From IMG/VR virus record IMGVR_UViG_3300028388_003792, positions 1 through 26,412 of that record: DNA of 26,412 bases; one strand, written 5' to 3'. How positions within the stretch are numbered: position 1 is the first letter of the stretch; each line of letters starts with the position of its first letter. The stretch comes from a virus. The notes under the pieces are model-generated. The model did no database searches, was not told the DNA's origin, and saw only the letters and a program-made list of their open reading frames with translations. The translations under genes and the position numbers were made by a program. Shown here piece after piece: positions 11,560-22,636 of the stretch.

Positions 11560-11728
11560 ATATGACAACCTCCCGGTATCTGCATGTAAATGGTGCAACA
11601 GTCTCTACTTAATAGTAGACCCAGAAGGAAATGACGTCTGTGGAAGATGTCACTCAAAGAATGAAATTATTATCTTTGATACTATAGAAGATTGGGAAGA
11701 AAGAAATAGAATAGATGAGTCAGTATGA
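11546..11728 (+). CDS. zinc-ribbon protein (60 aa)
   Basis: Two CxxC knuckles, C-K-W-C (residues 14-17) and C-G-R-C (32-35), with a short strand between (LYLIVDPEGNDV). This is the classic zinc-ribbon form, as in TFIIB/TFIIS-like and many phage proteins. The C-terminus is acidic (EDWEERNRIDES). Overlaps the next ATG by 4 nt. Confidence 0.7.
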   Translation: MKKNEYDNLPVSACKWCNSLYLIVDPEGNDVCGRCHSKNEIIIFDTIEDWEERNRIDESV

Positions 11729-12099
11729 AGAATGTAAAACAGGCAAATATAAATGTAACATTGAAACAATTATACAGACAATGGTTACAGATTACGAAAG
11801 CCTTTCATGGACTCACTAAACAGCAACAAAGTATTTTAGCGTTGTTTTTATATTATCATTATAAATATAAACAACAAATTACAAATGAAAAGATACTTTG
11901 GAGAACAGTATTTGATTATGATACTAAGCTAAAGATTAAAGAAGAATTAGGGATTAGTGATCCAGTATTGCAGAATAACTTGACTAAGTTTAGAAAAAAG
12001 GGAGTAATACAAAAAGGAAGGATAGTTGGAACATATATTCCAGCATTAGAAAAAGGGAGTAAAAATTTTAAAGTGATATTTAACTTTAATATCATATGA
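11725..12099 (+). CDS. putative winged-helix protein
   Basis: A 124-residue basic protein. Helices L-T-K-Q-Q-Q-S-I-L-A-L-F-L-Y-Y-H-Y and E-E-L-G-I-S-D-P-V-L-Q-N-N-L-T-K-F-R-K-K-G-V-I-Q read as a helix-turn-helix with recognition helix, followed by a strand pair (GRIVGTYIPALEKG, FKVIFNFNI) as the wing. A wHTH gene at this place, ahead of the virion genes, would suit control of late transcription. The fold is inferred from pattern only. Confidence 0.55.
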   Translation: MKNVKQANINVTLKQLYRQWLQITKAFHGLTKQQQSILALFLYYHYKYKQQITNEKILWRTVFDYDTKLKIKEELGISDPVLQNNLTKFRKKGVIQKGRIVGTYIPALEKGSKNFKVIFNFNII

Positions 12100-12368
12100 A
12101 TAAAGAGATAAAAAAGTTAATACATGATATAGGATTAAAATATGGTATTCCAGATGAAGAAGTAAAAAATATCGTATTTTCACCTTATCAGTTCGCAAAT
12201 GAAAAATTAAAAGAAGCAAATGAAAAAATAAATAAAGCAAATACTCCGCAGGATGTAGAAGATTTAAAAAAAGTATTTTTATTTAAATCATTATGTAAAT
12301 TATACATCTGTAATTATAGAATGAAAAATTTAATTAAAAAAAGGAAGAATAATGTTAGAAGGAATTGA
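12096..12368 (+). CDS. conserved-looking helical protein (90 aa)
   Basis: A 90-residue helical, Lys-rich protein opening with K-K-L-I-H-D-I-G-L-K-Y-G-I-P-D-E-E-V and S-P-Y-Q-F-A-N-E-K-L, a pattern I associate with small proteins encoded just before the terminase region in crAss-like phages. The C-terminus is strongly basic (LIKKRKNNVRRN). Overlaps both neighbours. Function unknown. Confidence 0.6.
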   Translation: MNKEIKKLIHDIGLKYGIPDEEVKNIVFSPYQFANEKLKEANEKINKANTPQDVEDLKKVFLFKSLCKLYICNYRMKNLIKKRKNNVRRN

Positions 12369-12720
12369 AAATCTAAGTAAAGAAAGGGTAGAGAAAGTTA
12401 TTGAAAACTTTCCATATAAACCTCGTCACACACGACTTATTGTAACAGCAAACACAACAGAACTTGATCCAGATGAGCCGGATCTTAGTCAACTTGACTT
12501 TGATGAATGGCAGTACGTAGTAGCCGTAGGTTCACATATTACAGATATTAAACCTGGAGATAAAGTGTGTTTGGATTTGGAAAAGATGCTGGTAGAGATT
12601 CCAGTAGGAGATAATTCAGAAGAAAGAGTTAAGCGTCTTAAAATTAATCCCGTCGAATATGACGGAAGGTACTATGCTCTTATCTTTGATAGTTACGTTT
12701 CACTAGTATACGATGCATAA
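12352..12720 (+). CDS. GroES-like co-chaperonin
   Basis: A 122-residue protein. After a helical N-terminal extension come H-T-R-L-I-V-T-A-N and T-T-E-L-D-P-D-E-P-D, like the first GroES strand and mobile loop. Then come Y-V-V-A-V-G-S-H-I-T-D-I-K-P-G-D-K-V-C-L-D, matching the GroES block V-x-A-V-G-x-G ... V-K-x-G-D-x-V, and a final strand Y-A-L-I-F-D-S-Y-V-S-L-V comparable to the GroES end (S-x-D-I-L-A-I-V). Somewhat longer than GroES (about 97 residues) because of the N-terminus. T4 gp31 is a known phage GroES. Together with the GroEL-like gene at 13689 in the same operon this suggests a working pair. The match is by pattern. Confidence 0.65.
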   Translation: MLEGIENLSKERVEKVIENFPYKPRHTRLIVTANTTELDPDEPDLSQLDFDEWQYVVAVGSHITDIKPGDKVCLDLEKMLVEIPVGDNSEERVKRLKINPVEYDGRYYALIFDSYVSLVYDA

Positions 12721-12898
12721 AGGGATATATTTTGCAGTAACGATTCCTGATCGAACAGAAAGTATGTTAGGAATATCTTTTATTCCAACAGAACATGTGA
12801 GAGCTTTTAATGAACAAACAGGAGAAGAAACAGAGGTTGAAGGAGCGACAATTTTTTCAATCGGATTAATTATATTAAGAATTGATATTATATTTTAA
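12713..12898 (+). CDS. hypothetical protein (61 aa)
   Basis: A 61-residue beta-rich protein (GIYFAVTIPDRTESMLGISFIP) with an acidic loop (NEQTGEETEVEGA) and a hydrophobic end (IFSIGLIILRIDIIF). It starts inside the last codons of the GroES-like gene (8-nt overlap), so translation is coupled. It could be a partner of that protein. No family recognised. Confidence 0.55.
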   Translation: MHKGIYFAVTIPDRTESMLGISFIPTEHVRAFNEQTGEETEVEGATIFSIGLIILRIDIIF

Positions 12899-12910
12899 AA
12901 ACAGAAAATT

Positions 12911-13123
12911 ATGTTAGAACAAGCATTGAGTAATTTGAAGAAAGTCATTGATACAGCAGTGGCTAGGGGTGGAGTGTTTGCTTCAGGCGATGAAGCTTCA
13001 GCAGCAACAACTTCACTACAGATTGTAGAACAAGTCCTTAAACAGAGGGAAGAAGCACTTGAAAAATGTCAAGAGCAACAAAAACAATCTAATGAAGCGG
13101 TAAAAGAAGCACCTGCTGAGTAA
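12911..13123 (+). CDS. helical hypothetical protein (70 aa)
   Basis: A 70-residue helical protein: Ala-rich N-terminal helices (LSNLKKVIDTAVARGGVF) then a coiled-coil (LKQREEALEKCQEQQKQ) and an acidic end. The start is preceded by AAAACAGAAAATT, similar to the 15-nt start element used on the minus strand at the left edge. The stop overlaps the next start (TAATG). Confidence 0.6.
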   Translation: MLEQALSNLKKVIDTAVARGGVFASGDEASAATTSLQIVEQVLKQREEALEKCQEQQKQSNEAVKEAPAE

Positions 13124-13689
13124 TGAAGCTATTTGAAATGACAAATTGGGATTTGCAAGTCTCGGAAGAAGTCTGGGGCTTGCAACCCTTTTCTAAAATC
13201 CTTAAGAGGGATAAATCAAAAGGAAAAGAAAAAGCTAATAAAGAGGTTCTCTTTGTTTACTATTTTTGTGATGTAAAGTCCCCATATGTCATTATTACAG
13301 ATATAGAAAAAAGAACTGAAAATATTAAAAATGATGTAGGTTTACCTGCTAAATGGAAAATGGATAAAGTTATTGAAGAAGCTATTGAGCTCTATGAAAG
13401 ATCATCTGAGTCAGTAATTCAAAAGCTTTATAAGCAATCTTTACAAGCAGCATCAGACGTAGGGGACTATCTTGCAAACTCAAAAGAGATATTAGCAGAA
13501 AGAGATGATAGAGGTAAACCTGTAGTTGACATATCTAAGATCACAACAGCATTAGGTAAAGTGCCTAAGCTTATGGAAGATCTGTCAAAAGCATATAAAC
13601 AAGTAATTAAAGAACAAGAGGACCTTGAAGGGAAGAAGAAAGGTTCTAGATCGTTTAACACCTTTGAACAAGGATTAACAATAGATTAA
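13123..13689 (+). CDS. possible terminase small subunit
   Basis: A 188-residue protein. The N-terminal part has strands (VLFVYYFCDVKSPYVIITD). A helical body follows (IEEAIELYERSSESVIQKLY, then LANSKEILAERD), and the end contains I-T-T-A-L-G-K-V-P-K-L-M-E-D-L-S-K-A-Y-K and R-S-F-N-T-F-E-Q-G-L. Proteins like this lie shortly before the large terminase in crAss-like genomes and have been regarded as small-terminase candidates. No clear DNA-binding helix-turn-helix can be read, so the role rests on position. TAATG junctions on both sides. Confidence 0.5.
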   Translation: MKLFEMTNWDLQVSEEVWGLQPFSKILKRDKSKGKEKANKEVLFVYYFCDVKSPYVIITDIEKRTENIKNDVGLPAKWKMDKVIEEAIELYERSSESVIQKLYKQSLQAASDVGDYLANSKEILAERDDRGKPVVDISKITTALGKVPKLMEDLSKAYKQVIKEQEDLEGKKKGSRSFNTFEQGLTID

Positions 13690-15065
13690 TGGAAATATAT
13701 AGTGGGAGAGAAAAAATATTAGAGGCTATTAATAAATTAGCCGATACAGTAGAACTTACAATGGGTCCTGAAGGAGCAACCGTAGGTATAGCAGATTTTC
13801 ATGGAAATGCAAAAGTAACTAAAGATGGAGTATCTGTTGCAAATGAAATTGAGTTTAAAGACCCTGTAGAAAACTTTGCAGCTAAACTCCTTAAGCAGGC
13901 TGCACAAAATACTGTTAGAGAAGCAGGAGATGGAACTACTACTTCTATTGTGCTTGCACGAGAAATGATTATGGAAGGCTATGAATCAGAGTTGTCACTT
14001 CGAGAACTTAAATCAGAGTTAGAAAAGCTTGAAAATATTGTAATAGAAGAAATTTTTAAAAGAGCTAAACCTGTAGAAAATCTGCATGATGTAGCACTTA
14101 TCTCATGCAATGGTGACAAAGATATGGCTGATGTTATTGTGGAAGCTTATGATCACTCAGATATAGTAAAACTTGAAGAAGCTATTATTGATAAGGATCA
14201 TGTAGAAGTTATAAATGGTATGCGTCTGAAAGGAAGTTATTTTGATCCAGCCTTTGTAAATAATATAAAAAAGTCAGCAATTGACTATCAGAAATGTAAG
14301 TTTATTATCGTAAAAGGTCATCTTAACGATATTAATCAAATTAAAACTACTCTTACAGGTACACAAGAAATGCCTATTATTATCATGGCAGATCACTTTC
14401 ACAGTGAACCTCTTGGTATACTTAAAGAGAATCACAACAGGGGTAACCTTGCGGTAGGTCTAATTAAAACACCTGGAATGGGTGGTCATAGGACTAATCT
14501 TGTAGGAGATATTATTAAATGGACTAAAGCTTCTAAGCAAGCTGAAAATGTATATCTTACAGAACTTGATAGTATTTTTGTAGATAAAGAAAATATTACT
14601 TTTGGAAAAGAAGATGGATCAGTAGATTATCTGGAAGACTTGGTAGAATCATATGATGAAAATGATGCTACACATAGGCTTCTCCAAGAACGCATTGCTG
14701 CTCTTAGTGGTAAAATGTCTATCATTACTGTTGGTGGTAAATCTGAGGCAGAAAGAAGTGAAAGGAAAGACAGGATGGAAGATGCTGTTCTTGCTGTAAG
14801 ATCAGCTAAAGAAGAAGGGGTTATTCCCGGAGGAGGTGTACCTCTTGCCGAAATAGCTAAAAAATATGAAGATAAAAACTTCTTTGCTATCTCTTTAGAA
14901 GAACCTCATGAAAGAATTAAGGAGACTACAGAGAATCTTGAAATTACAGATGCTATTGTAGACCCCGCTAAAGTTACAAGATGTGCCGTACAAAATGCTA
15001 TCTCTGTAACTAAAGTTGTACTCAGCATGGGAGCTGTAGTACTAAACCCTAGACTATGGAGTTAA
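13689..15065 (+). CDS. GroEL-like chaperonin
   Basis: A 458-residue group I chaperonin homologue, a ring-forming ATPase that folds proteins in a closed chamber. Matches to GroEL in order: L-T-M-G-P-E-G-A-T-V (residues 23-32), T-K-D-G-V-S-V (44-50, Asp52 of GroEL), G-D-G-T-T-T (80-85, Asp87), V-I-N-G-M-R-L-K-G-S-Y-F-D-P at the apical boundary (174-187), M-E-D-A-V-L-A-V-R-S-A-K-E-E-G-V (363-378, Asp398), P-G-G-G-V (380-384) and D-P-A-K-V-T-R (425-431). All ATPase aspartates are present, so it should be active. It is about 90 residues shorter than GroEL: it ends after the last equatorial helices without the Gly-Met tail, and the apical domain is trimmed. It overlaps the terminase gene by 10 nt. 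A GroES-like gene lies 1 kb upstream. Confidence 0.88.
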   Translation: MEIYSGREKILEAINKLADTVELTMGPEGATVGIADFHGNAKVTKDGVSVANEIEFKDPVENFAAKLLKQAAQNTVREAGDGTTTSIVLAREMIMEGYESELSLRELKSELEKLENIVIEEIFKRAKPVENLHDVALISCNGDKDMADVIVEAYDHSDIVKLEEAIIDKDHVEVINGMRLKGSYFDPAFVNNIKKSAIDYQKCKFIIVKGHLNDINQIKTTLTGTQEMPIIIMADHFHSEPLGILKENHNRGNLAVGLIKTPGMGGHRTNLVGDIIKWTKASKQAENVYLTELDSIFVDKENITFGKEDGSVDYLEDLVESYDENDATHRLLQERIAALSGKMSIITVGGKSEAERSERKDRMEDAVLAVRSAKEEGVIPGGGVPLAEIAKKYEDKNFFAISLEEPHERIKETTENLEITDAIVDPAKVTRCAVQNAISVTKVVLSMGAVVLNPRLWS

Positions 15066-17326
15066 AAATGAATGATTTACAAACCCCTCTTACGGAGGAT
15101 ATAAAGAAAGAATTACCTAAAGAGGTATGGGATGATATTTTAGAATACGTCTCTTCCGTTAAGATGATTCAAAATCTTATATCTCCTGAGAGGGGTTATA
15201 TTACGGATCGCCCCGTAATGACTTATATAAACGATGATGGAGAAGAAGTAGAATATGAAGATGGACGAAGAGAGATAGATATCACAAATCCTCATCGTCT
15301 GGAAAACATGGATTACTTCCGTGAGAGAGCAATATTTTATGAAAAAAATGGAAGGTACACTAATCTTATCCCAAATGGTAATCCTCAATCTGAATATGCA
15401 CAGTTTTGGAAAAATGAGCTTAAACGATGGAAGTATGGAATGGTAAGAGAAGATGGGGAGTGGATTCCTGGTCTTCTCTATTTTTATTGGAATTATACAC
15501 AGATAGCAATTACCAAGCAGGATAAGAAACAGAAACGTAAATCAGATAGGATTCGTTCATTTCCTAAACCTTGGCTTGGTGACTATCTTTTTTATCATTA
15601 TGTAGAGCAAGCACAAAATAGAGGGCAACACTGTAAATTGCTTAAAACAAGGGGTATTGGTTTCTCCTTTAAGTGTGCTGCATGGAGTCCTTGTAATATG
15701 TATACAAAACCTGGGTCTCAGAACCCTAACTTTCATCTTGCGTCTGAGAAGACATTTTTATCAGGAGATAAAGGTATATGGGGTAAAGTACTAGATAACT
15801 TAGATTGGATTGCTAACACTACACCATTTCCTCGTATGCGTCTTATGGATAAGAAGCAAGCAATGGAAATACAGTTAGGATATGAAGATGAGTATGGGGT
15901 CCGTAGGGGACTGCTTTCTTCTTGCTTTGGTATATCAATGAAAGATAATCCAGATAAGGCTAGGGGTATTCGTGGTCCTTATATTCATTATGAAGAAGAT
16001 GGACTTTTTCCTAATCTTGAAAAAGCTTGGAACGTTAATAGGAAAGCAGTGGAAGATGGTGGAGTTGCTTCAGGAACTATGTTTGCTGGAGGTACTGGAG
16101 GTGTTGAAGGTGCATCATTTGAAGGATCAGAAAAACTTTTTTATTCTCCGGGTGCTTATGGTATATATGGTATACCTAATGTATTTGATAAAAATACTGA
16201 TGGAGAGACACGAGTTGGTTTCTTCTGGGGAGCATATATGAACCGTAACCTTTGTTATAATGAACAAGGGGAGCCTGATGTAATTAAAGCTCTCATAGAG
16301 ATATGTCTTTCTAGACACAAGGTGAAATATTCTTCTAGTGATGCTAATGCTATTACACAGAAAAAAGCAGAAGAACCTATCACTCCTCAGGAAGCTATTA
16401 TGCGTACAGAAGGAACTGTATTCCCTGTTGCAGACCTTAAGGAGCATCTTGAAAATATAATGGTTAAAAAAGAATCATTTCTTGCACATCATTACGTGGG
16501 AGACCTAGTATATAATTCTAGAGGAGATGTAGAATGGAGACTTACAACACATAAGAATCCTATAAGAGCTTATGATTTTGTAGGAGATAGAAGTGGTGCT
16601 GTAGAGATATTTGAAATGCCAAAGAAAAATGGGCAAGGGCAAATACGTTGGGGTAGGTACATAGCTGGTATTGACCCTATTGATGCAGATGAAGGGCCGT
16701 CTTTATTTTCTATACTTGTGATGGATACTATGACAGATCGTATAGTAGCTGAATATACTGGACGTCCTCGCAGAGCTAGAGATGCTTATGAAACATGTCT
16801 TAAGCTTGTAAAATTCTATAATGCAGAAGCAAACTACGAGAGTAACCTTAAAGGACTCTTTTCTTATTTTGATGAGCGTAATGCACTTCATTACTTAGCG
16901 GATACTCCTCAGATTTTAAAAGATATGGAGTTTATTAAAGCTACAAATCTTTATGGTAATAGAGCAAAAGGTACACATCTTAATCAGTATATTAGTAAGT
17001 TTGGAAGACAGCTGCAAGCAGATTGGATGCTCCAAGAAGCTTATGGAGTATCAGAAGAAGAGAAAGGTAAGCTTAACTTACACACGCTTCGTAGCCTTGC
17101 TCTTATAGAAGAATACATTAAATGGAATGCAGATGGTAACTTTGACCGTGTATCTGCAGGAATTATGTTATTTATATTAAGAGAAGACAGATATAAAAGG
17201 ATTGAAGCAATTAAGACAAATAAGTACAAAAATATGAAGTCTTTGTCAAATGATCCTTTTTTTAAGAAAAATTACAAAGGTAATGTACCTGAGCAAAGAA
17301 ATGTGTTTGAAGAACATGGAGAATAG
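15056..17326 (+). CDS. terL: large terminase subunit (TerL)
   Basis: A 756-residue DNA-packaging motor protein: an N-terminal ATPase that drives DNA into the prohead and a C-terminal RNase H-like nuclease that cuts it. The Walker A region (about residues 197-206) reads K-T-R-G-I-G-F-S-F-K, a deviant form of the kind seen in crAss-like TerL, without the usual G-K-S/T. Walker B is Y-I-H-Y-E-E (309-314). The nuclease domain begins at Y-I-A-G-I-D-P-I-D-A-D-E-G (535-547), whose Asp540 would bind metal. The start is ATG 15056, overlapping the chaperonin gene, or ATG 15068. Stop TAG. Followed by a hairpin and promoter P3. Confidence 0.92.
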   Translation: MELKMNDLQTPLTEDIKKELPKEVWDDILEYVSSVKMIQNLISPERGYITDRPVMTYINDDGEEVEYEDGRREIDITNPHRLENMDYFRERAIFYEKNGRYTNLIPNGNPQSEYAQFWKNELKRWKYGMVREDGEWIPGLLYFYWNYTQIAITKQDKKQKRKSDRIRSFPKPWLGDYLFYHYVEQAQNRGQHCKLLKTRGIGFSFKCAAWSPCNMYTKPGSQNPNFHLASEKTFLSGDKGIWGKVLDNLDWIANTTPFPRMRLMDKKQAMEIQLGYEDEYGVRRGLLSSCFGISMKDNPDKARGIRGPYIHYEEDGLFPNLEKAWNVNRKAVEDGGVASGTMFAGGTGGVEGASFEGSEKLFYSPGAYGIYGIPNVFDKNTDGETRVGFFWGAYMNRNLCYNEQGEPDVIKALIEICLSRHKVKYSSSDANAITQKKAEEPITPQEAIMRTEGTVFPVADLKEHLENIMVKKESFLAHHYVGDLVYNSRGDVEWRLTTHKNPIRAYDFVGDRSGAVEIFEMPKKNGQGQIRWGRYIAGIDPIDADEGPSLFSILVMDTMTDRIVAEYTGRPRRARDAYETCLKLVKFYNAEANYESNLKGLFSYFDERNALHYLADTPQILKDMEFIKATNLYGNRAKGTHLNQYISKFGRQLQADWMLQEAYGVSEEEKGKLNLHTLRSLALIEEYIKWNADGNFDRVSAGIMLFILREDRYKRIEAIKTNKYKNMKSLSNDPFFKKNYKGNVPEQRNVFEEHGE

Positions 17327-17401: not shown

Positions 17402-19780
17402 ATGGCAAGAACAAACATACAATCTTTACCGCCTCAGCGTCTTTCTTACGCACGAAAGACTAAAAAATGGAGAAAGAGTAATGTCGATTATGCAGACAGA
17501 CATTCTTTTTACCACAATGAATTTGTGCGTAAAAGTTTAAGAAATAGGGTTATTAATTATAACCTATATAACGGTGTGGTAGATGTAAGAGATATCAATA
17601 GGGTTATTAATCCTACTAAACTTGATGCTACATTTGTTCCAGATAATATTCCTCATCATCCAATCCTAGTTCCTAAAATTGATTTACTTGTAGGAGAAGA
17701 AATTAAAAGAAGGTTTGATTGGAGGGTAGTAGTATCTAATGCAGATGCTATTTCAGCTAAAGAAGAAGAAAAAAAGAAAGTACTTTTCCAACGTATTTCT
17801 GAAGCTCTTCAAGCTAATTATGCGGAAGAAGAATTGGAACAGAAGTTTACAGAGCTAGAAGAATATATGACATATTCTTGGCAGGACTTACATGAGAAGA
17901 TGGCAAATCAAATTTTACGCCATTATTGGGAAGAACAAGAATTTGCTACTATATTTAATCATGGTTTTAAAGATGCCTTGATTGCAGGAGAAGAAATTTA
18001 TCAAGTAGAAATTGTATTAGATGAGCCAGTTCTAACGAAGCTTAACCCGCTTAAAGTACATACAGTACGGGCAGGTAACTCAGATAGGATTGAAGACTCA
18101 TCTTTAATTATTATAGAGGATCACTGGTCTCCGGGCAAAATTGTTGATTATTTCCATAATGAACTTAAGCCTAAGGATATTGATCATATTTTAGAGTATT
18201 CTACTACTGATCGTGCTGGAGCATATGTAGATGATAATAATCATGTACTTCTCCGAGATGGTCTTGACGAAGTAGGAGATGCTACTACTCATACTCTTGA
18301 TAGTGTATTTGATTTTGCTGAAGTAAATGGTCATTACTTTTCTAATGACTATACAGATGAGAACGGTAATATTAGGGTTCTTCGTGTATACTGGAAATCA
18401 TTGAAAAAAATGAAGAAGGTTAAGTACTACGATGAATTTGGTGAAATAGAATACAAGATACGTACAGAAGAATATGTAGAAGATGAATCAAGAGGAGAAG
18501 AGAGTGAGATCATCTGGGTCAATGAATGGTGGGAAGGAACCAAAATTGGGAAAGATATTTATATTAATATGCGCCCTCGTCCTGTTCAATATAATAAGAT
18601 TAATAATCCTTCATATTGTCACCCCGGAATTCTTGGGCAAATTTACAATACTAATCAGGGAAAAGCTGTTTCTCTTGTAGATAGATGTAAAAATTATCAA
18701 TATCTATACGATGTAATTTGGGATAGGCTTAATAAAGCTATTGCAACTAACTACGGAAAGATAATGGAAATGGATCTTTCTAAAATCCCAGAAGGATGGG
18801 AAATTGAGAAATGGTTGCACTATGCACTTGTAAATAAGATTGCAGTCGTAGATGCCTTTAAGGAAGGTAATAAAGGGGCTGCTACAGGTAAACTTGCTGG
18901 TGCTATGAACACTATGGGTGGTCGTAGTATTGACATGGAAACAGGTAATTATATTCAAGCACACATGCAGCTTCTTGAGTTTATCAAACTTGAGATGTCT
19001 GAAATTGCTGGTGTAACTAAGCAACGTGAAGGGGCTATTCATCAAAATGAAACAGCATCAGGTATTGAAAGGTCTGTTAACCAATCAGCTCTTATTACAG
19101 AATATTGGTTTCATACACATGAAAGAACTAAACTTCGTGTAATGGAAGCTTTCCTTGAAACAGCTAAAATTGCTCTTAAAGGAAAAAATAAGAAAGTGCA
19201 ATACATATTGGATGATCAAACTATCCAAGTACTTAATATTGATGGAATGGAATTTGCATCAGCAGATTATGGTATTGTATGCACATCTTCATCTAAATCA
19301 GTAGAACTTGAACAAACATTAAAGCAATATGCTCAGGCATTCTTGCAAAATGGTGGAGGTCTTTCTACTATCATGGATATCTACTTTAGTCCAAGTCTAC
19401 AAGATATGCGTCATAAGCTTGAGAAAGCAGAGCGACGTATTGAGCAACAACAGCAGCAAGCTTCTCAAGAGGCTAATAAACTCGCAAGAGAACAAGCTGC
19501 ACAACAGGCTGCTTTGGAAGAATCCAAGCTTATGCTTGAAGATATGTTGAATCAAAGAGATAATGATACTAAGCGATATATTGCAGAACTTCAAAAGGTA
19601 GACTTTGAAGGTGATGGTATTGAGGAAGCTAAACTTGAGTTAGACATCCAGAAACAAAAGGATGAAAAAATGATTAAGATGAAAGAGCTCCAAGATAAGA
19701 TGGAAATGCATGAAGATAAAATACGTACAGAAGAAAAGAAAATTCAAGCACAAAAGAGTAAACCTAGCACTACAAAATAG
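17402..19780 (+). CDS. portal protein
   Basis: A 792-residue portal, the ring through which DNA enters and leaves the head. The N-terminal half contains W-R-K-S-N-V-D-Y-A-D, L-Y-N-G and I-P-H-H-P-I-L-V-P-K-I-D-L-L-V-G-E-E-I-K-R-R, a block typical of crAss-like portals that leads into the clip and stem. The middle has conserved-looking K-L-N-P-L-K-V-H-T and I-A-G-V-T-K-Q-R-E-G-A-I. The last ~130 residues form a long coiled-coil rich in Gln, Glu and Lys (RIEQQQQQASQEANKLAREQ), the barrel-like extension. Position after TerL and before the capsid gene, and length, fit the family. The start follows promoter P3 directly. Confidence 0.92.
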   Translation: MARTNIQSLPPQRLSYARKTKKWRKSNVDYADRHSFYHNEFVRKSLRNRVINYNLYNGVVDVRDINRVINPTKLDATFVPDNIPHHPILVPKIDLLVGEEIKRRFDWRVVVSNADAISAKEEEKKKVLFQRISEALQANYAEEELEQKFTELEEYMTYSWQDLHEKMANQILRHYWEEQEFATIFNHGFKDALIAGEEIYQVEIVLDEPVLTKLNPLKVHTVRAGNSDRIEDSSLIIIEDHWSPGKIVDYFHNELKPKDIDHILEYSTTDRAGAYVDDNNHVLLRDGLDEVGDATTHTLDSVFDFAEVNGHYFSNDYTDENGNIRVLRVYWKSLKKMKKVKYYDEFGEIEYKIRTEEYVEDESRGEESEIIWVNEWWEGTKIGKDIYINMRPRPVQYNKINNPSYCHPGILGQIYNTNQGKAVSLVDRCKNYQYLYDVIWDRLNKAIATNYGKIMEMDLSKIPEGWEIEKWLHYALVNKIAVVDAFKEGNKGAATGKLAGAMNTMGGRSIDMETGNYIQAHMQLLEFIKLEMSEIAGVTKQREGAIHQNETASGIERSVNQSALITEYWFHTHERTKLRVMEAFLETAKIALKGKNKKVQYILDDQTIQVLNIDGMEFASADYGIVCTSSSKSVELEQTLKQYAQAFLQNGGGLSTIMDIYFSPSLQDMRHKLEKAERRIEQQQQQASQEANKLAREQAAQQAALEESKLMLEDMLNQRDNDTKRYIAELQKVDFEGDGIEEAKLELDIQKQKDEKMIKMKELQDKMEMHEDKIRTEEKKIQAQKSKPSTTK

Positions 19781-21124: not shown

Positions 21125-22636
21125 ATGAGTTTAGGTAAGTTTGTAATGACCAAGGGTAAGTCCTGGTCAGGATTAACATTGAAGAACCACCTTGGTTCTA
21201 TCTTTGGACTCCGGCCTCAGTTGGCTTCTAAACTTACTACTGTACTATTGCAAAACTCTGGAATGAAGAACTTAGACACTACTCTATCGAAGTTCCCAGA
21301 GAAGGTGTTGGAAACATCCGACGATTTTGTGTGGAAAGTAGTAGGTAGTGATGAACGTAGCATCCCTCTTGTGGAAGCTCGTTATGCTGGGTCTGTAGTC
21401 GCAGGAGGTGACACAGGTGTAGGTGCCGGAAGGGCACGAATTCTTCTTGTTTTCCCAGAAAAGTATTTCTCACGTGTACATGTAATTGCTGGTATTCACC
21501 CGGACGATTATCAATTCCGATTGGTAGAAGAGCCGTATGAAGAAGGTGGTAACTATGTATATGAAGCAGAAGTATGGGGTGGACAAGAAACACTCGATGG
21601 TGTACCAGGATCAGAATTGGTAGCTGGTAACCGTTTTAGTATTGAAGCTTCTTACGTTGAAGATGAATTGTCCAACAAAGGTTCGGACATTCAATTCACT
21701 TCTCCGTACCTCATGAGGAATAGCATCTCTACTATGCGATTTGAGCACAAGGTTTCTGGTGCAATGATTGATGTTAAAGTAGAGCCTGTTTATTTCGCAG
21801 GTATTGAGACACGTGATTCTAACAGCGGAAAAGTACACAAGTCTGTGACTTGGATGCAAGAAGTATATTGGCAGTTTGAAAGGGCTGTATCACGAGTGAA
21901 AGCACGTACTCTCATGTTTGGTAAAACCAACCGTGATGAGAAAGGACGATTCCTTAACAAAGGCGAATCTAACATTGAAATTAAAGCTGGTTCTGGAGTA
22001 CGAGAGCAGATGGAAGTTAGTAATACAACTTCGTATAACCGCTTCTCCATCCGACTCTTGGAGGATTTACTCTATGAACTTTCAGAAGGCAAATTGGATT
22101 TTGGTGAGCGTAAATTCTTGCTCCGTACTGGTGAGCGAGGTGCTGCACAATTCCACCGAGCAGTAACTCAAGAAATTTCAGGTTGGACTAGTCTCGGATT
22201 TGATAACACAGGTAAGAATGCTCTTATGGATGTAAGCTCTCCGCTTCATTCCAATGCATTCTCTGCAGGATTCCAGTTTACAGAATGGAAGGCCCCTAAC
22301 AACGTTCACGTAATGTTGGAGGTTGATCCAATGTATGATGACAGGGTACGTAACAAAATTTTCCACCCAGACGGTGGGGTAGCAGAAAGCTATCGTTATG
22401 ATATTCTTTACATTGGTTCTATGGAAGAGCCGAATATCCAGAAAATTATGGTCCGTGGCCATGAAGAAATTCGAGGATATAAAGGTGGTATCCGTGATCC
22501 ATTTAGTGGACGACGAGGAGGAGTAATGCAACACATGGAGGATTCCGCCATCATGTCAGCAATGTGCTGGTCTGGTGCAATGGTTAAAGATCCTTCTAGG
22601 ACTGCAACTCTTAAACCCTCACTTCTTGCCGCATAA
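21125..22636 (+). CDS. major capsid protein
   Basis: A 503-residue protein of the crAss-like HK97-fold capsid type. Features: N-terminal G-K-F-V-M-T-K-G-K-S-W-S-G-L-T-L-K-N, F-P-E-K-V-L-E-T-S-D-D-F-V-W-K-V-V-G-S-D-E-R-S-I-P-L-V-E-A-R (cut here by its strand-rich folds), then a long beta-rich body and W-S-G-A-M-V-K-D-P-S-R-T near the end. Position after portal and scaffold-like gene, length and codon use (more G/C-ending codons than neighbours, as for a highly expressed gene) all agree. It forms the icosahedral shell. Hairpin 22663-22682 follows. Confidence 0.93.
   Translation: MSLGKFVMTKGKSWSGLTLKNHLGSIFGLRPQLASKLTTVLLQNSGMKNLDTTLSKFPEKVLETSDDFVWKVVGSDERSIPLVEARYAGSVVAGGDTGVGAGRARILLVFPEKYFSRVHVIAGIHPDDYQFRLVEEPYEEGGNYVYEAEVWGGQETLDGVPGSELVAGNRFSIEASYVEDELSNKGSDIQFTSPYLMRNSISTMRFEHKVSGAMIDVKVEPVYFAGIETRDSNSGKVHKSVTWMQEVYWQFERAVSRVKARTLMFGKTNRDEKGRFLNKGESNIEIKAGSGVREQMEVSNTTSYNRFSIRLLEDLLYELSEGKLDFGERKFLLRTGERGAAQFHRAVTQEISGWTSLGFDNTGKNALMDVSSPLHSNAFSAGFQFTEWKAPNNVHVMLEVDPMYDDRVRNKIFHPDGGVAESYRYDILYIGSMEEPNIQKIMVRGHEEIRGYKGGIRDPFSGRRGGVMQHMEDSAIMSAMCWSGAMVKDPSRTATLKPSLLAA

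Follow-up and report, generated by a model that had tools for sequence, protein, structure and literature searches.

A predicted GroEL and Cpn10 pair upstream of the terminase gene in a crAss-like phage lineage, with a hypervariable and apparently exchanged ring-ring segment in the chaperonin

The window analysed here is the whole 26,412-nucleotide stretch of IMG/VR virus record IMGVR_UViG_3300028388_003792, a virus fragment of 26.4 kb, and its plus strand, to which all of the window's features given below belong, carries two predicted chaperonin genes upstream of that for the terminase large subunit (terL). One of them (12352–12720) codes for a 122-residue protein read here as a Cpn10 (GroES-like) co-chaperonin, and the other (groEL, 13689–15065) for a 458-residue protein read as a group I chaperonin (GroEL/Cpn60). 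Membership of the Crassvirales is indicated by the major capsid protein, which matches the crassvirus family PF23898 at 8e-169, and library searches also placed a P22-like portal and a crAss-type terminase in the window. The ATG of terL (15056–17326) stands at 15056 and the stop codon of groEL ends at 15065, giving the overlap, here of 10 nucleotides, that a preliminary description of this DNA had pointed out. The position of groEL, directly before and overlapping terL, and a hypervariable segment in its product are the features specific to this lineage.

The larger protein matches Pfam Cpn60_TCP1 (2e-32), PHROG 5725 'chaperonin groEL' (1e-95) and the NCBIfam model TIGR02348 (1e-72). Its AlphaFold model (predicted local distance difference test, pLDDT, 89) shows the three-domain Cpn60 fold, and the 50 PDB matches listed for it are all GroEL/Hsp60. 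The alignment revealed that the equivalents of D52, D87 and D398, the GDGTTT motif of the ATP site (residues 80–85, 13926–13943) and D495 are retained, in agreement with the earlier statement that the three ATPase aspartates and the main nucleotide-binding blocks are kept; across the window's clade the three aspartates are present in 57 of 57 GroELs and GDGTTT is intact in 56. All libraries searched agree on a group I chaperonin, for which a heptameric ring and ATP-driven folding are predicted. In two relatives (L001, 9067–11562, and L002, 2889–5384; the loci of relatives are numbered with the prefix L) the GroEL is 831 residues long, and an intein containing a LAGLIDADG domain splits this same motif between GDG and TTT. 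A literature search on GroEL inteins found no paper.

Taken alone, the 122-residue product matched no Cpn10 model in Pfam, PHROGs, NCBIfam or the PDB sequences, and its best single-sequence matches, chorismate mutase and DUF6618, were judged to be due to chance. Sequence and predicted structure nevertheless identify it as a true, strongly diverged Cpn10, because five lines converge: orthology, Pfam matches in relatives, a family profile, the loop of the AlphaFold model and the Foldseek ranking. By similarity and position it is the ortholog of the 'putative 10kDa chaperonin' of crAss001 (gp15), cr111_1, cr116_1 and others. Pfam Cpn10 recognises 6 of the 56 members of the Cpn10 family (best 5e-6), whereas the window protein remains below the gathering score. 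The family profile, when built without locus L110, finds the L110 Cpn10 (3e-8 among 15,742 open reading frames, ORFs), an ORF that abuts groEL and is matched by Pfam Cpn10 at 1.4e-20. In unrelated phages, too, the profile picks out GroES genes adjoining groEL: among its top 20 non-family matches 14 abut groEL, as compared with 355 of 15,639 ORFs overall (hypergeometric 3e-19), and several of the remaining six also read as GroES. For the Cpn10 identity hhalign gives 93%. The AlphaFold model, obtained from a 56-sequence alignment (pLDDT 86), has the beta-barrel Cpn10 fold, and its confidence falls (pLDDT <50 at residues 42–46) within the predicted mobile loop, placed at about residues 33–52 (12448–12507) between the first two strands, as in GroES. 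With this model Foldseek ranks GroES/Cpn10 chains at all positions from 1 to 29, with a probability of 1.00, and T4 gp31 at position 32. The TM-score of the Cpn10 fold match is about 0.5 by query length and 0.6 by target length. The GroES-like domain of alcohol dehydrogenases was rejected, as it ranks below the 29 Cpn10 chains and the neighbourhood is that of a chaperonin. The GroES-like character proposed in the preliminary description is in this way borne out by the family profile, by AlphaFold and by Foldseek, with a Cpn10 fold predicted for 12352–12720.

A GroEL query alone gave no IMG/VR relatives, and loci were therefore gathered by terminase and GroEL alignments. Co-occurrence was counted in those terminase loci (n=52, redundancy removed) that have 6 kb or more of upstream sequence, of which 38 carry both genes, 12 only Cpn10 and two only GroEL. 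Among GroEL-bearing loci with enough upstream sequence Cpn10 is thus kept in 38 of 40, as would be expected of the proposed pair. The two GroEL-only loci (L191 and L204) each have a 101-residue ORF abutting groEL (L191:7098–7400) that looks GroES-like by eye and is recognised by neither Pfam nor the family profile. Cpn10 was found in 14 of 14 named complete or near-complete phage genomes and in all 20 long contigs examined, and GroEL in four of these 14 genomes (phi14:2, cr108_1, cr111_1 and Dulem virus 41). Because of these counts and this survey, Cpn10, the lid, is a broad trait and GroEL, the chamber, belongs to a narrower subset and is differently placed in the window's lineage: in nearly all members of the window's clade groEL lies between a gene for a 188-residue protein and terL, and in phi14:2, cr108_1 and cr111_1 it lies 2.5–3.3 kb upstream of terL. 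Neither gene is new to crAss-like phages. In public records crAss001 and many Steigviridae already have a 'putative 10kDa chaperonin' annotated, and phi14:2, cr108_1 and cr111_1 a GroEL. The novelty first attributed to the pair was accordingly overestimated, while the position of groEL overlapping terL does prove to be lineage-specific. In the searchable literature, which leaves most subscription papers outside, the crAss-like pair is undiscussed except for a single remark that GroEL/GroES genes lie near phage DNA polymerases (PMC11348598), and chaperonins are absent from the main texts that deal with crAss001 and with the genome diversity of crAss-like phages.

The folds, the catalytic aspartates and the mobile loop are common to the window pair and to E. 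coli GroEL/GroES. The window GroEL, however, lacks the ring-ring residues and N479/A480, has a shortened end of helix D, no GGM tail and a C-terminal equatorial part that is about 40 residues shorter, and the roof hairpin of GroES is absent from the lid (about 9 residues missing). T4 gp31 is likewise a phage co-chaperonin without roof loops (PMC6318259); there the missing hairpin leads to a wider dome opening, and gp23, the capsid protein of T4, requires gp31 (PMC6318259). gp31 works with host GroEL, whereas the window phage encodes its own. The gene of crAss001 gp15 lies, like the window Cpn10 gene, after an HU-like gene and before terL, but in a genome without GroEL. Cellulophaga phage phi14:2 (Steigviridae), also crAss-like, has a GroEL (about 32% identical to that of the window) and an unannotated Cpn10 homolog upstream of terL; its groEL precedes Cpn10 and lies about 3.3 kb from terL, whereas that of the window follows Cpn10 and overlaps terL. 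Phage GroES–GroEL pairs are also annotated in the public records of Cellulophaga phi38:1 and Calle_1 (Pervagoviridae) and Flavobacterium elemoA, which, unlike the window, carry no Crassvirales assignment and have a Cpn10 of ordinary length next to groEL. The chaperonins of phages EL and OBP, which have been characterised biochemically (PMC7185714, PMC5934643), resemble the window GroEL in their remodelled ring-ring interface (in EL helix 462–471 is replaced; PMC7185714). EL differs in having no co-chaperonin (PMC5934643), and no allele swapping is described in the available parts of this literature.

Most likely the two genes provide the phage with a group I chaperonin of its own, cage and lid together, that would fold phage virion proteins. 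Sequence and predicted structure show both folds, the intact catalytic site, the conserved gene order, the co-occurrence, the mobile loop and the loss of the roof hairpin from the lid, whereas we infer the partnership of GroEL and Cpn10 and the identity of the clients. The GroEL-like subunits would assemble into an ATP-driven ring, which a Cpn10-like heptamer would cap through its mobile loop, and virion proteins would fold inside the cage during morphogenesis and thereby independently of host GroEL/GroES. The most plausible clients are the capsid or portal proteins, whose genes lie just downstream. The portal gene (17402–19780, identified by library searches) and that of the crassvirus major capsid protein, a likely client (21125–22636), follow terL in a same-strand block that runs to the window end, and not in an operon closed by terminase as originally described. 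That the Cpn10 is instead a gp31-style lid for host GroEL, and the phage GroEL a separate chamber without lid, is unlikely. The survey of named genomes (Cpn10 in 14 of 14, GroEL in 4 of 14) and the loop triplets such as GGLII or GGIII that persist in GroEL-lacking relatives speak for such a host lid, as does the EL chaperonin, which lacks a co-chaperonin (PMC5934643, PMC7185714); the GroEL-bearing clade, however, also keeps the loop (DGxLVLSDN), and both genes stand within 1–2 kb in one same-strand block. Several features do weigh against a cage with its own lid. Cpn10 is present without GroEL in the majority of the complete Crassvirales genomes checked, and could there act on host GroEL, and the hydrophobic triplet of the mobile loop, LVL or LIL in many relatives, is weak in the window (P-D-L). 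At the apical positions that bind substrate and GroES in E. coli, Y199, F204, L237 and L259 are kept in the window GroEL and Y203A, L234K, V263K and V264E are changed, three of them to charged residues, and the nucleotide contacts N479/A480 are missing.

In E. coli GroEL most of the ring-ring contacts lie in one C-terminal equatorial segment, with the contact residues E434, R452, E461, S463 and V464, and the single-ring mutant alters R452, E461, S463 and V464. In the window GroEL each of these five positions is either gapped or altered. The same holds for K105 and A109, which form the opposite side of the contact where helix D ends, so that all seven contact positions of the staggered double ring are affected, and throughout the clade the ring-ring residues are absent or changed. 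The window GroEL is expected to form single rings, or rings joined via a lineage-specific interface, and not the E. coli double ring, because the ring-ring segment has been rebuilt and, across the clade, repeatedly replaced.

A closer look at this segment (about residues 417–490 of E. coli GroEL; 37 residues in the window, 14838–14948, among the shortest) showed it to be hypervariable. It was compared as the equivalent of E. coli residues 420–487 in an alignment of 57 clade GroELs, taking the 33 close pairs with at least 85% identity over GroEL residues 10–415 (range 85–98%). The segment identity is below 35% in 26 of these pairs and at least 84% in the other seven, with none between, and in 26 of the 27 pairs that have any stretch of 40 residues below 60% the trough sits at the segment. 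The DNA identity profiles of five pairs show a single sharp drop within groEL, with flanks mostly above 85% and up to 99%. Thus, between L053 and L088 the DNA identity is 99% in Cpn10, 93% in groEL before the segment and 69% in the segment when gaps are not counted; behind the segment it rises to 97%, and in terL it is 99%. The L088 segment resembles that of L189 (81%) although those GroELs are 73% identical, and L063 and L174 have a common segment (88%) on backbones of 71%. The swapping is seen among the clade relatives; the window, whose nearest terminase is about 75% and whose nearest GroEL 51% identical, is too distant for this comparison and shows only the reduced segment. As a control, 171 bacterial GroEL pairs of equal similarity had a median segment identity of 74% and none fell below 54%, and no segment swapping was seen among the GroELs of the Vibrio phage isolates compared. 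Other phage GroELs from the same search have a milder dip at the same segment; they include L116, L122, L131, L137 and L165, which have no crAss-type terminase in the fetched stretch. The alleles appear to keep a fold, because a proline and its flanking hydrophobics are retained across them. The all-or-nothing divergence, the conserved flanks and the alleles common to separate lineages argue that the segment has been replaced wholesale by recombination between lineages and not by drift. A swapped hypervariable GroEL cassette of this kind seems not to have been reported before.

Several other origins of the segment differences were weighed. Drift of a segment freed from constraint in single-ring chaperonins would fit the clade-wide loss or change of the ring-ring residues and the fact that the region is among the most variable of bacterial GroEL too, if more mildly; point mutation, however, cannot yield all-or-nothing divergence beside conserved flanks, and the hydrophobic core pattern is retained, which makes this reading improbable. 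Artefacts of metagenome assembly, for which it can be said that all clade members are metagenome contigs and no isolate of the clade was found, are very improbable indeed, since the differences are seen at one and the same place, and always in frame, in five or more separate lineages, and alleles recur in separate contigs (L053/L054, L182/L184, L035/L036/L037). A diversity-generating retroelement is argued against by a search of 18 long contigs. It detected neither a reverse transcriptase nor, apart from one weak match (E 0.03) in one contig, a further copy of the segment that could serve as donor or template. Homing endonucleases might produce such a pattern as a by-product, through cleavage near groEL and co-conversion without selection on ring contacts, and GIY-YIG-type ORFs adjoin groEL in L027, L045, L053, L058, L093 and L094, an intein interrupts it in L001 and L002, and T-even phages offer known examples of co-conversion and of marker exclusion (PMC2988022). 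This explanation is rather doubtful, as most replacements are between phages without such a gene beside groEL (L071/L175/L077, L176/L189/L182), the boundaries fall always on the same structural element, the replaced alleles keep the hydrophobic pattern, and close bacterial and Vibrio phage GroELs show no such replacement. When tested as a general cause, homing endonuclease linkage accounted for some cases only; the GIY-YIG-type genes may promote exchange, while most replacements occur without one. Insertions of homing-endonuclease-like ORFs, on the 5' side of groEL or close to it, are seen at L058:7498–7998 (GIY-YIG), L093:6997–7644, L094:9411–9974 (NUMOD3-like) and L053:4665–5225, and are absent from near-identical relatives.

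The diversification of the segment may have to do with the identity of the rings, with evasion of a host factor or with conversion driven by homing. It is conceivable, as a tentative proposal, that the ring-ring segment acts as an exchangeable identity tag of which frequency-dependent selection keeps many incompatible alleles. Such a tag might avoid mixing with, or poisoning by, the rings of the host or of a co-infecting phage, or else help the phage to evade a host factor that attaches to this surface, a suggestion equally tentative.

The remaining genes around the pair complete the locus. By their order and size, two ORFs upstream (11725–12099 and 12096–12368) correspond to the genes annotated 'VpsT-like regulator' and 'protein HU' ahead of Cpn10 in crAss001. 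Between the Cpn10 gene and groEL lie two small ORFs without assigned function (12713–12898, 61 residues; 12911–13123, 70 residues) and the gene for the conserved 188-residue protein directly 5' of groEL (13123–13689; PHROG 16390, function unknown), which by its position is a candidate small terminase subunit. In L176 a 46-residue ORF with a DnaJ-type zinc-finger pattern (CxxCxGxG; 817–957) lies between the 188-residue gene and groEL. The terminase ORF of cr111_1 (L005:13113–16412) has about 1100 residues where relatives have about 750, and may therefore contain an insertion, for example an intein.

On the reading of the pair as cage and lid, a crAss-like lineage would carry both parts of a folding cage, chamber and lid, beyond a lid for the cage of the host. 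Phages may in this way diversify a conserved cellular machine on a single, defined surface. The segment alleles would represent a natural library on the role of the ring-ring contact in chaperonins, and the segment itself is a new candidate surface for conflict between phage and host or between phages.

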